In this document: in pieces, positions 3,816-14,445 of the stretch
Layout: each line of letters opens with the position of its first letter
Position numbering within the stretch: the stretch's first letter is position 1
The notes under the pieces: generated by a model
The model's database searches: none
Seen by the model: the letters and a program-made list of their open reading frames with translations, nothing else
What the model was told of the DNA's origin: nothing
DNA from: a virus
Length of the DNA: 26,491 nucleotides
Direction: 5' to 3' (one strand)
Virus record (IMG/VR): IMGVR_UViG_3300042905_003504
Coordinates: 1 to 26,491 of that record
Program-made: the position numbers and the translations under genes

Positions 3816-5233
3816 GCCCTCGGCGCGAGTTGAATTTCGACCCCGAGCCCCCGCGCGAGCCGACGCCTCGCGAAGAGCGCTTGTGGGAGCTTCCGCTGCT
3901 CGAGTTCATCGAGGCCGGCTCGGGCGGGCGCATCTCCTCGCCGACGCACCTCGAGGAGCCCGCGTCGCTCATCGAGGCATGGGAGCGAGGGGAGATCCCA
4001 GACCTGCGCGCCGTCGTCGATGCGCCCGTGCAGCACGGCAAGACGACCCTCCTCGAGTGGGCCGCCGCGTGGATCCTCCTGCGTCATCCCGATTGGGCGG
4101 GCATGTACATCACGTACGACGTCAGGAAGGCCGAGAAGCATAGCCGCCGCATCCGCTCGATCTTCGTCGAGAACGGCGGCCAGATCAAACCCGACTTCAA
4201 CACCATCCACCAGTGGGAGACGACGGAGAACGGCGGCCTCCTCGCGACGTCGCGCGACGGTGACCTGACCGGTAACCCGGCCATGTTCATCCTCTACGAC
4301 GACCCGTACAAATCCTACGAGGAGGCCGAGGACGCCGACGTGCGAGAACGCCTCGAGGAGAAATTCGCGAACGAGGCCATCACCCGCATGGCCCCTGGCG
4401 GCATGATCTGCATCGTCGCGTCGAGGTGGCACGAGGACGACCTGAGCGGGACCAAAATTCGCGAGGGGTTCCGGCACATCCACCTCGAGGCGATCCGTGT
4501 GGACGAGCACGGCGAGGAACATGCGCTCTGTCCGTGGGGCCCTAACCCGAGGTTCCCACGCACGCTCGAGTGGCTCCGCGAGGTGCGCCGCACGCTGGTC
4601 GAGAGCGGGCGCGAGTCGACGTGGTGGAGCCTCTACCAGGGCTCTCCGAGGCCGACGGGCGCTGGGCTGTTCGCCGATGCGACGTGGCACGAGGGGGAGC
4701 TCCCGCGCATCGTGCGGCGCGCGTGGGGCGTCGACCTCGCGTTCAGCGCTGGAGCGAAGGGCGACCGGACGGCGCTCGTGCTCCTCGGTCTCGGAGAGGA
4801 CGGCATCGTGTACGTGCTCTGGGTGTGGAGCGTGCGGAAAGGCATCGTGGAGGCTGCGCCGTCGGTACGCGCCGAAGTGTCCCGCGCGCCCGAGGCTCCT
4901 CTTTCGACCTACGCCAGCGGACCCGAGGTGGGCTCATACCAGGCGCTCGCGGTCGATCGTGACCCGATCCGCGTGGAGGTCATGCCGGCGCGGTTCTCGA
5001 AGTACGTGCGCTCGAGGCGCACGGCCGAGAGGTGGAACGCGGGCCGCGTGCGCGTGCTCGCCGGGCAGGTCTGGGGCCCGACGTTCGCGCGCCTCGTGCG
5101 AGCGTTCACCGGCGCGGACGGTGGCGTGGACGACGAGGTTGACTGCCTCGTGGCCGCGCATGACCGGCTCATGGTGCAGCGGTCGGGCGGGGATGGTCGT
5201 GGCGGGTGGACGTCAGGGAAGCGCCGCATGTAG
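3812..5233 (+). CDS. terL: terminase large subunit (packaging ATPase/nuclease)
   Basis: This 473-residue protein is the DNA packaging motor that docks on the portal, pumps DNA into the prohead and cuts it. The N-terminal ATPase shows Walker A at 72-79 (PVQHGKTT), Walker B at 159-165 (FILYDDP) and the coupling motif around 200-207 (CIVASRWH). The C-terminal RNase H-like nuclease has its first acidic residue at D308 (WGVDLAFS) and late acidic residues near 440-444 (DDEVD). The ribosome site GGGAGGCGAGG lies just before ATG 3812. The stop is TAG, unlike most neighbours. The small subunit is not recognisable nearby. Confidence 0.93.
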   Translation: MSPRRELNFDPEPPREPTPREERLWELPLLEFIEAGSGGRISSPTHLEEPASLIEAWERGEIPDLRAVVDAPVQHGKTTLLEWAAAWILLRHPDWAGMYITYDVRKAEKHSRRIRSIFVENGGQIKPDFNTIHQWETTENGGLLATSRDGDLTGNPAMFILYDDPYKSYEEAEDADVRERLEEKFANEAITRMAPGGMICIVASRWHEDDLSGTKIREGFRHIHLEAIRVDEHGEEHALCPWGPNPRFPRTLEWLREVRRTLVESGRESTWWSLYQGSPRPTGAGLFADATWHEGELPRIVRRAWGVDLAFSAGAKGDRTALVLLGLGEDGIVYVLWVWSVRKGIVEAAPSVRAEVSRAPEAPLSTYASGPEVGSYQALAVDRDPIRVEVMPARFSKYVRSRRTAERWNAGRVRVLAGQVWGPTFARLVRAFTGADGGVDDEVDCLVAAHDRLMVQRSGGDGRGGWTSGKRRM

Positions 5234-11801: not shown

Positions 11802-13277
11802 ATGAGTGGTACCGGCAATGTGGAGTTGACCATTCTCGACGGGAGCTCGGGCTCCGTCAACGTGCCGCTCTCGAGCGTGTACGTCGTGATCGGCACGTCG
11901 AGCTCTGGCACGGCGGCTACCGTCGTCGCGAGCCGGAACAAAAACTCGCTTGCGAGCACGGTGGGCTACGGCCCGGCCGTCGACCTCGCGGCGATGCTCA
12001 TCGAGGCGGGCGGCACGGTGCTGTTCGTCAAGGCGGCGAGCGCGAGCGCGGGCGCTGCCTCGGCGGTGACGGCGTTCGCCACCGGGACAAGCGTCGTGAC
12101 CGTGAGCGGCACTCCGTACGATGCGTACCTCGTGAAGCTCAAGGTCGCCAACGGCGGTACCGTGGGCACCGCGGGCATCCGCATCCAGATCAGCCTCGAC
12201 GCGGGCCGCAACTACGGGCCCGAAATCTACCTCGGCACGGCCAACAGCTACGCCATGACGGGCACGGGACTGACCCTCGCGTTCGCGGCGGGCACGATGG
12301 TGACCGGCGAGACCGTGACCTTCGGCTGCACCGAGCCGCTGCCCAACACGGCCGGCGTCTCGGCATGCCTCACGGCCCTCTCGCTCTCGCCGTACGCGGT
12401 GACCGGGTGGGGCGGAATGATCATCCAGGGCGTGTGGACGGGCGCGAACGCGACGACGATCGCTGGCTACCTGACCACGCTCCAGAACGGCGAGATTTTC
12501 TCGCGCGCGTTCATGACCGCTCGCGATGCGGCGCTGCCCACGGCGTACGGCGGCGCGGGCGAGACCGAGGCAACGTGGGGCGCGGCCATCGTGGCCGACT
12601 TCGTGGCGGTCGCGGCTCCCAGGGTCTCGTTCACCGGCGGCTACTACAACATGACCACCAACTATCCGGTCGCGTGCGCAGGTGCGTCGACGCTCCGTCG
12701 TCCGGGGCTCTGGGCGTACGCGGCTCGTCGCATTGCCATCGAGGTGCAGCGTCATGCGGGCCGCGTGCAGGATGGTCCGCTCACGCAAATCGTGATCGAC
12801 CCGACCAACGACCCGACCGACGGGTTCATCTACCACGACGAGGAGACGACCCCGCTCCTCAACGTCGGGCGGTTCATCGCGATGCGATCGCGCAAGGGCA
12901 AGCCCGGTCTGTTCGTGAGCAATGACGTCACGATGGCGGCGCCCGGGAGCGTGTTCACGCTCGTTCCACGCGCGCTCGTGATGGACGTCGGCTGCACGCT
13001 GCTCACGCAGCTCGGCACCGAGGAGATCAACGCGGACATCTTGCTGAACGCGAACGGCACGATCGACGAGGGAGAGGCGCAGCGCATCGAGCGCTACATC
13101 TCCGGCGTCATGAACGAGCGCATGCTGAACGCTGGCATGCTGTCGGCCCCCGGCGTCGTCGTCGAGGTCGACCGCACCAACAACGTGCGCACCACCGAAC
13201 AGGTAAATCTCACGGCGAATCTCCACTCCAAGGGATACGTCCTCCAGGTCAACGCGACGATCGGCTACGCGCCGTGA
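11802..13277 (+). CDS. contractile tail sheath protein (DUF2586/Mu gpL-like)
   Basis: This 491-residue protein polymerises around the tube and contracts on infection. The C-terminal third is typical of sheath proteins: LVPRALVMDVGCTLLTQL, NGTIDEGEAQRIERYISGVM, and final strands ending in NATIGYAP, which link neighbouring subunits. The GLWAYAARRIA region is the core. Residues about 92-179 form a separate beta-rich insertion (TVSGTPYDAYLVKLKVANGG through TVTFGCTEP) that is not part of the minimal sheath. TAA/TGA stops and close spacing put it in the same transcript as the tube. Confidence 0.9.
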   Translation: MSGTGNVELTILDGSSGSVNVPLSSVYVVIGTSSSGTAATVVASRNKNSLASTVGYGPAVDLAAMLIEAGGTVLFVKAASASAGAASAVTAFATGTSVVTVSGTPYDAYLVKLKVANGGTVGTAGIRIQISLDAGRNYGPEIYLGTANSYAMTGTGLTLAFAAGTMVTGETVTFGCTEPLPNTAGVSACLTALSLSPYAVTGWGGMIIQGVWTGANATTIAGYLTTLQNGEIFSRAFMTARDAALPTAYGGAGETEATWGAAIVADFVAVAAPRVSFTGGYYNMTTNYPVACAGASTLRRPGLWAYAARRIAIEVQRHAGRVQDGPLTQIVIDPTNDPTDGFIYHDEETTPLLNVGRFIAMRSRKGKPGLFVSNDVTMAAPGSVFTLVPRALVMDVGCTLLTQLGTEEINADILLNANGTIDEGEAQRIERYISGVMNERMLNAGMLSAPGVVVEVDRTNNVRTTEQVNLTANLHSKGYVLQVNATIGYAP

Positions 13278-13777: not shown

Positions 13778-13787
13778 CGGCGTGCTA

Positions 13788-13837
13788 GAGAGTGGGTAAG
13801 GGGCGTGCGGCTTTAAGCGGCGCTCCTACCCACTCTC
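13788..13837 (+). other. long stem-loop directly before chaperone ribosome site
   Basis: GAGAGTGGGTA at 13788-13798 plus GG at 13800-13801 pairs with CCTACCCACTCTC at 13825-13837, giving 13 base pairs with a single bulged A at 13799. The enclosed 23 bases can extend the stem with weaker pairs (13803-13805 with 13821-13823). No T-run follows; instead AGGAGGT starts at the very next base. It is therefore probably not an intrinsic terminator, and may be a processing, stability or translation-control element. Confidence 0.7.
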
Positions 13838-13844
13838 AGGAGGT
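13838..13844 (+). promoter_or_regulatory. strong ribosome site abutting hairpin
   Basis: AGGAGGT lies five bases before ATG 13850 and is immediately adjacent to the 3' foot of the upstream hairpin. Coaxial or steric effects of the stem could alter ribosome access. The site itself is close to the ideal anti-16S complement. Confidence 0.75.
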
Positions 13845-13849
13845 AGACC

Positions 13850-14191
13850 ATGTCCAAGTTCGTTCCGACTCCACCGCCCGACGATGCCACGCTGGAGGAG
13901 CTCGGCGCCGAGCACGACGGCGTCCACGATTTCCGTGGGCCGGAGCGCGCGCCGTTCGTGTACGTCGTGCGTCGGCCGACACCCAAGGAGCTCTCGGCGT
14001 ACAACGCGGAGAACAAGCGGGGGCGCGTGCTCGAAGCGAATCGACTCTTGCTCCTCGCCATCACGGTCTACCCCGACCGCGCGGCGGTCGACCAGCAAAT
14101 CACGCGCTGGCCTGCGAGCGCCGGCACGTGCCTCACGTCGGACGCGTTCACCGAGTTCTGCGGTGGCGTGCTGGCCGAACACCAAAAATAA
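13850..14191 (+). CDS. tail assembly chaperone, short form (G-like)
   Basis: This 113-residue protein lies between the tube and tape measure, the position of tail assembly chaperones that coat the tape measure before tube polymerisation. It has VYVVRRPTPKELSAYNAENK and a later LLLLAITVYPDRAAVDQQ stretch, then WPASAGTCLTSDAFTEFCG, a pattern common to such proteins. It ends at TAA 14189-14191 right after an A-run. A second reading frame shifted by -1 continues past the stop and gives a longer form. Start ATG 13850 has a strong ribosome site. Confidence 0.8.
   Translation: MSKFVPTPPPDDATLEELGAEHDGVHDFRGPERAPFVYVVRRPTPKELSAYNAENKRGRVLEANRLLLLAITVYPDRAAVDQQITRWPASAGTCLTSDAFTEFCGGVLAEHQK
14183..14191 (+). 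promoter_or_regulatory. predicted -1 frameshift site at chaperone stop
   Basis: The zero-frame codons CAA AAA TAA contain a run of five As (14184-14188) immediately before the stop. A lysine tRNA on AAA can slip back one base and still read AAA; the next codon is then ATA instead of the stop. The -1 frame stays open for 85 codons and ends two bases before the tape measure ATG. A 5-bp GC-rich stem (14201-14205 with 14218-14222) lies 12 bases downstream and might stimulate slippage. Similar A-runs occur elsewhere in the window, so context is the main support. Confidence 0.65.
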
Positions 14192-14445
14192 TCGGCGCCC
14201 TCCGCGCGCGCATGGCGGCGGACGCTGTAGAGCTCGGGCGAGGCCTGGCGATGATGATGCGCGGCGAGGAGAGCGACGAGGCGGAGGCCGCTACGGAGGT
14301 CGTCGCCGAGTCGCTCATCTGGTGGCGCGCCATCGCCAGGACCAAGATCCGCGTGACGGAGACGATGCCTGCGCCGCCCGATGCGGATGACGGCATGACG
14401 CCTGCGGAGCGCGCGTACTACGCGGCGAAGGCCGGGAGGCGCTGA
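14188..14445 (+). CDS. tail chaperone frameshift extension (T-like)
   Basis: This segment encodes the 85 residues added when ribosomes slip -1 at the preceding A-run, giving a 198-residue fusion (113 + 85). It is helical, acidic in the middle (RGEESDEAEAATEVV), and ends with TPAERAYYAAKAGRR. An independent ATG at 14212 has no ribosome site, so expression through frameshifting is preferred. Lambda gpG/gpGT and Mu gp41-type proteins use the same strategy; the long form recruits tube subunits to the tape measure. Confidence 0.68.
   Translation: MIGALRARMAADAVELGRGLAMMMRGEESDEAEAATEVVAESLIWWRAIARTKIRVTETMPAPPDADDGMTPAERAYYAAKAGRR

Follow-up and report, generated by a model that had tools for sequence, protein, structure and literature searches.

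A tetranucleotide A_AAA as the probable -1 frameshift site of a tail assembly chaperone gene in a phage family

Results

The chaperone gene and its second frame

Two reading frames that lie between the tube and tape measure genes of a phage contig very probably constitute a single tail assembly chaperone gene of the lambda G/GT type, expressed through a -1 frameshift in which one tRNA-Lys would slip on the tetranucleotide A_AAA. The contig, 26,491 bases long and referred to here as the window, is a viral one from a metagenome, has a GC content of 70%, and belongs to a virus whose hosts are probably soil myxobacteria. According to the mechanism that we propose, most ribosomes would stop at the TAA at 14189 and release a 113-residue chaperone, while in a minority the tRNA-Lys (anticodon UUU) would leave the AAA at 14186-14188, slip one base back and re-pair fully with the AAA at 14185-14187; reading would then continue with ATA ATC GGC... 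and give a 198-residue fusion carrying an 85-residue C-terminal domain. The stop right behind A_AAA probably gives the peptidyl-tRNA time to slip. That the slip occurs we infer from the conservation of the site and of the frame and from the absence of start sites. The kind of frameshift is known; the minimal variant of the site is the new part.

The order tube, chaperone, tape measure, to which the sequence-only reading of the window had appealed, was borne out by gene calls together with PHROG and Pfam matches, and forms part of a contractile-tail arrangement of sheath, tube, chaperone, second frame and tape measure (Table 1). The gene following the sheath appears to encode the tail tube protein, judging from its place and from a homologue at the tube position of Mu-like phages (in Meiothermus MMP7, where it is annotated XkdM); relatives of this protein were found at 37-84% identity.

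Table 1 Features of the window between the sheath and tape measure genes
Feature	Position	Strand	Basis
Tail sheath protein, 491 aa, DUF2586 / phrog_907	11802..13277	+	Pfam PF10758, E 3.9e-19; PHROG tail sheath, E 3.1e-18
Probable tail tube protein, 161 aa	13292..13777	+	Position right after sheath; homology to Mu-like tube-position protein
Stem-loop between tube and chaperone genes, outside the shift signal	13788..13837	+	Fold of 13778-13849
Shine-Dalgarno AGGAGG of the chaperone gene	13838..13843	+	Sequence; anti-SD pairing -11.7 kcal/mol
Putative tail assembly chaperone, short 0-frame product, 113 aa, gpG-like	13850..14191	+	AlphaFold2 model, fold matches, position between tube and tape measure
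Putative shift site A_AAA (CAA third base + Lys codon AAA)	14185..14188	+	Invariant in 20/20 loci; codon-column test
0-frame stop TAA, adjoining the shift codon	14189..14191	+	TAA/TAG/TGA at the same place in 13/18 distinct lineages
-1 frame, predicted C-terminal extension, 85 aa, gpT-like	14188..14445	+	Conserved in all relatives; third-position excess of changes
Tape measure protein, 600 aa	14447..16249	+	PHROG tail length tape measure families, E 1.7e-11 and others

At the junction, the earlier description of CAA AAA TAA (14183-14191), with a run of five A before the stop and 85 further codons at -1 (14188-14445), was accurate. The chaperone ORF ends in CAC (14180-82), CAA (14183-85), AAA (14186-88) and TAA (14189-91), the A-run occupies 14184-14188, and the frame from 14188 on reads ATA ATC GGC GCC CTC... 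up to the TGA at 14443-14445, its 85-residue translation beginning with IIGALRARMAADAVELGRGLAMMMRGEESDEAEAATEVVAESLIWWRAIARTKIR. Between this TGA and the tape-measure ATG (14447) there is one base (14446), not the two bases originally given. An X_XXY_YYZ heptamer is lacking in the window, as the CAA tRNA in C_CAA_AAA would mismatch on CCA; the AAA tRNA re-pairs fully at -1 (AAA to AAA), in keeping with the single-tRNA pattern Z_ZZN. Since trypsin would cleave the fusion peptide ...HQK-IIGALR exactly at the junction Lys, Glu-C or Asp-N would be needed to see the junction peptide.

The 113-residue product was modelled by AlphaFold2 with a pLDDT of 91, and the top four fold matches in the PDB include 3fgx (TM 0.67-0.77), the HK97 tail assembly chaperone 2ob9 and YqbN, 3klu. 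Among the viral fold matches, several carry the name tail assembly chaperone. The window's chaperone had no family match in PHROGs or Pfam, and sequence profiles fell short of the Phage_TAC families; among the chaperones of the relatives, 7/18 match DUF6848 and four match a PHROG labelled 'minor tail protein'. Since the E-values of the PDB matches are modest (4e-3 at best), we base the identity of the chaperone on fold, gene position and frameshift together. The features expected of a lambda G/GT-type chaperone, namely the gene position, an extending frame at -1, a conserved slippery site and a chaperone fold, are all present, and the two products would by this reasoning have a G/GT-like function.

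The gap between the tube and chaperone genes holds a very stable stem-loop (-41 kcal/mol, z -5.1, for the fold of 13778-13849), with no T-run behind it. Strong folds occur at the same gap in five relatives (z -3.1 to -5.2 in L003 and L005-L008); in three of these, L005-L007, the AGGAGG-like ribosome site of the chaperone is itself base-paired within the fold. Possibly, the stem-loop lowers chaperone expression relative to that of the tube. The surroundings of the gene vary in other ways among the relatives. In L011, an additional small ORF of about 70 aa (4562-4771) separates tube from chaperone, and the chaperone starts with GTG after a strong ribosome site, AAGGAGG. In L041 (4377-4802), L042 and L043 (7681-7965), the frameshifted chaperone is followed by an inserted tail-completion-like gene, which in L043 lies between the chaperone and the tape measure.

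Conservation of the site and of the -1 frame

In the window, the -1 frame is already open from 13792 on, upstream of the chaperone stop. Long open frames are common in DNA of 70% GC, so that openness by itself is weak evidence, and we therefore searched for relatives and compared them. With the chaperone as bait no relatives were found, and its C-terminal domain retrieved only one locus, L002. Since the chaperone is too divergent, the tube and then the sheath were taken as bait. The resulting set comprises 19 loci besides the window, 17 of them distinct, from viral contigs and one Myxococcales MAG (L011); counts below refer to 20 loci including the window, to 18 distinct lineages, and, for the codon-column test, to 16 non-redundant members.

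A_AAA is found at the same place in the chaperone ORF in 20/20 loci, representing 18 distinct lineages, and reading at -1 beyond AAA gives the same C-terminal domain in all 20 (Table 2). The alignment of related phages, which had been named as a check on the proposed -1 frameshift joining the two chaperone frames, thus found both the A_AAA and the -1 frame conserved throughout; the observation was confirmed, and it is the relatives that decide in favour of its interpretation. The stop follows AAA directly in 13/18 distinct lineages and one codon later in three, and tandem heptamers at the shift site are confined to L047, L048, L009 and L010. In a tree of sheath and tube, the window falls within a group of eight with direct A_AAA-stop junctions (support 100/100), and the three G_GGA_AAA lineages group together (97/98).

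Table 2 Sequences at the end of the chaperone ORF in the 20 loci
Junction	Loci	Remark
CAA AAA TAA	Window, L004	
CGA AAA TAG	L003, L011	
GAA AAA TGA	L005, L006	
GAA AAA TAG	L007	
CTA AAA TAA	L008	
GTA AAA TAA	L040, L043	
TCA AAA TAA	L044	
GTA AAA TGA	L049, L050	
AAA AAA TAA	L048	Tandem heptamer A_AAA_AAA
GTA AAA CCA TAA	L041, L042	
TCA AAA CAG TAG	L046	
G_GGA AAA GCC TAG	L047	Tandem heptamer
G_GGA AAA GGC	L009, L010	Stop far off; distant; classic tandem heptamer G_GGA_AAA

Across the 16 non-redundant members, eight amino acids occur at the position preceding the Lys, yet their codons all end in A, and the Lys is without exception encoded by AAA. When 99 gapless codon columns from the chaperone and 151 from the tube were compared, an invariant A at the third base was seen in the two shift-site codons and nowhere else; the invariant Lys codon of the tube is always AAG. 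The script anchors the columns on the last A_AAA, yet this anchor lies 0-1 codon before the stop in all 16, so that little freedom was used in the anchoring. Codons ending in A make up 3-20% of the chaperone frames of the GC-rich members (40% in the AT-rich L048), and AAA is usually the minority Lys codon in these genomes.

The ability of the 5' codon to re-pair is not kept across the family (C_CAA, C_CGA, G_GAA, C_GAA, G_CTA, C_GTA, C_TCA, T_TCA, T_GTA), whereas A_AAA is invariant, which argues for a slip of a single tRNA-Lys on this tetranucleotide. The earlier preference for single-tRNA over tandem slippage was thereby upheld.

Downstream of the site, nearly every pair that we compared has an excess of changes at the third positions of the -1 frame (17, 14 and 32 changes by codon position between the window and L003), and by this measure the -1 frame is under purifying selection. 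Upstream of the site, this frame is short in four relatives: it extends back only 9 nt in L040, 27 nt in L009 and 33 nt in L049/L050 and contains no start codon there, which confines the frame change to the last few codons. Within these codons A_AAA is the sole element that permits re-pairing in every locus. We also considered a better slippery heptamer further upstream, where the -1 frame of the window is open over a long distance, and rejected it because the relatives pin the shift to the last codons.

Alternative readings of the junction

Instead of shifting, ribosomes might finish the chaperone at its stop and restart on an overlapping ATG or ATA (ATGA / ATAA), making the second domain a separate protein. 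The -1 codon over the stop is indeed ATG in L005, L006, L049 and L050, and in the distant Meiothermus phage MMP7 a TTG start with TAAGGA sits right at the stop. In the window and most other relatives this codon is ATA, a very poor start codon, so that the window has no start-stop overlap of the ATGA type, and neither ATG nor ATA lies over the stop in L046 (GTA), L047 (CTA), L009 and L010, all of which keep A_AAA. The junction of the window has no ribosome site (anti-SD pairing of -1.5 kcal/mol vs -11.7 at the chaperone start and -10.3 at the tape measure), and reinitiation would leave unexplained why the A before AAA is constant while the residue varies. We therefore consider termination followed by reinitiation improbable. 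Homologues with the two frames as separate genes, which had been named in advance as evidence against a shift, were seen only in the Meiothermus phages, distant relatives with about 34% identity in the tube whose second frame lies at +1; none were seen in the window's clade.

Independent initiation inside the second frame, whether at the ATG at 14212 or at a GTG further upstream in this frame, is less probable again. An ATG does occupy the same place in L003, L011 and L004, but it has no ribosome site in the window, as the sequence-only reading had stated (anti-SD pairing of -1.5 kcal/mol), L005-L008 and most other relatives lack its equivalent, and the frame has conserved residues ahead of its position. 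Moreover, L008, L043, L044 and L009 have no start codon in the first 110 nt of the second frame. Transcriptional slippage, by which mRNAs with an altered number of A would let the fusion be read normally, would apply to long A-runs, of more than about 7-8, which are prone to polymerase slippage (PMC3711429); the run here is too short, with five A in the window and only four in L003, L008, L011, L040 and others, and slippage of the transcript would not constrain the variable base before it, making this a very unlikely source of the fusion. Although the window is a metagenome contig, a once-joined frame split by sequencing error or decay is already refuted by conservation, as 20 loci, each assembled separately, share the split at one and the same position, and the -1 frame is under purifying selection.

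Stimulators and the choice of lysine codon

A common 3' RNA structure or other conserved stimulator of the -1 shift was sought across the relatives and not found. The window contains no convincing SD-like element or hairpin, and its 3' fold is unremarkable (z +1.4 over 70 nt, -1.15 over 92 nt). Strong SD-like sequences precede the site only in L004, L008, L044 and L046 (GAGGAG in the latter two), and strong downstream folds or hairpins occur in L007, L040, L044 and L050. The stop directly behind AAA in 13/18 lineages may itself act as a stimulator; it is not indispensable, since some lineages have one more codon before it. The adjacent stops in this family are followed by T, which is a strong termination context in E. 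coli and would count against a slip there, although this T can be explained by conservation of the protein (I/V).

Counting against the proposed site, a survey of all Z_ZZN tetramers in E. coli found A_AAA barely above background when no stimulator was present and, with the IS3 pseudoknot, the weakest of six active tetramers; A_AAG shifted far better than A_AAA (PMC4066793). Two tail-chaperone cassettes shifted at 6-7% (PMC3711429). In the family described here AAG is the usual Lys codon, yet the shift site is always AAA. In the Myxococcales MAG that carries L011, a close relative, there are two distinct tRNA-Lys genes, one with the anticodon CTT and the other with TTT. Slipping back onto AAA would leave a CUU anticodon incompletely paired, so that slipperiness would be limited to AAA codons, decoded by the UUU tRNA. 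Two such genes, which belong to the L011 MAG and may not be those of the window's host, would explain the use of AAA instead of the commoner AAG.

It is also possible, though somewhat less likely than not, that the site works as a -1 'shifty stop'. With the stop in the A site and termination slow, the peptidyl-tRNA-Lys would slip on A_AAA, and competition with the release factor would set the ratio of the chaperone products; the arrangement would have been kept across the clade and tuned to hosts whose second tRNA-Lys (CUU) makes AAG non-slippery. Shifty-stop cases have been mentioned before (PMC5009743).

Discussion

Most searches for frameshifted tail chaperones target heptamers, while the function here would rest on four bases. 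A family that has only A_AAA in common makes two questions testable, namely whether a stop can stimulate a -1 shift and how few bases a programmed shift needs. It also seems feasible to chart the types of shift site along a single phage family. Gene callers will split the chaperone gene in two, and the fusion should be annotated in this clade.

The -1 frameshift of lambda gpG/gpGT, with counterparts in other long-tailed phages, was reportedly described by Xu, Hendrix and Duda in 2004, and the lambda slippery site is G_GGA_AAG. The gene studied here resembles lambda G/GT in its place before the tape measure, in the -1 direction and in joining an N-terminal chaperone to a C-terminal extension, and its fold resembles that of the HK97 tail assembly chaperone. 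It differs in its site: lambda-type tandem heptamers lie some codons before the stop, whereas here the tetranucleotide A_AAA usually abuts it. Frameshifts of the lambda type in long-tailed phages have been reviewed (PMC5009743).

With Mu-like phages (Mx4, MMP7/MMP17 and Mu) the window shares the gene order and a homologous sheath and tube. The cultured Mu-like Myxococcus phage Mx4 ends its chaperone with GAA AAA AAA GAC CTC TGA, containing the tandem A_AAA_AAA, and Mu itself uses a -2 shift (PMC5009743). The Meiothermus phages MMP7/MMP17 differ in that their second frame, at +1, begins with its own TTG; in MMP7 (L013, 4764-4776) the chaperone stop TAA overlaps an SD-like TAAGGA ahead of the TTG. 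Because these distant phages have a separate start, the wider family can evidently switch its mode of expression.

More distant prophages in Myxococcota genomes have varied chaperone ends, many of which, on a rough reading, resemble -1 sites. L016-L020 and L022 appear, from their translations only, to carry other -1 sites, examples being G_GGA_AAG before TAG, G_GGG_AAA before TAG, and A_AAA_AAA; in L021, L024 and L030 the chaperone seems to be one uninterrupted frame of about 230 codons, and the shift may be absent.

The PRFect motif classes named twofive and twoonefour, predicted and unexplained, derive from annotations of tail-chaperone frameshifts in actinobacteriophages (PMC10885494). Their names would fit CCAAAAA in the window and CCGAAAA in L003 and L011, respectively; unlike these motifs, the window's family holds only A_AAA constant. 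Shifting of a single tRNA on A_AAR is established for B. subtilis cdd (A_CGA_AAG) and IS1222 (G_CGA_AAG) (PMC5009743). As in those two cases, the Lys tRNA alone would re-pair, and the 5' codon ends in A, being even CGA in L003 and L011. In contrast to them, the sites here have AAA and not AAG as the Lys codon, mostly abut a stop, and lie in a tail chaperone gene.
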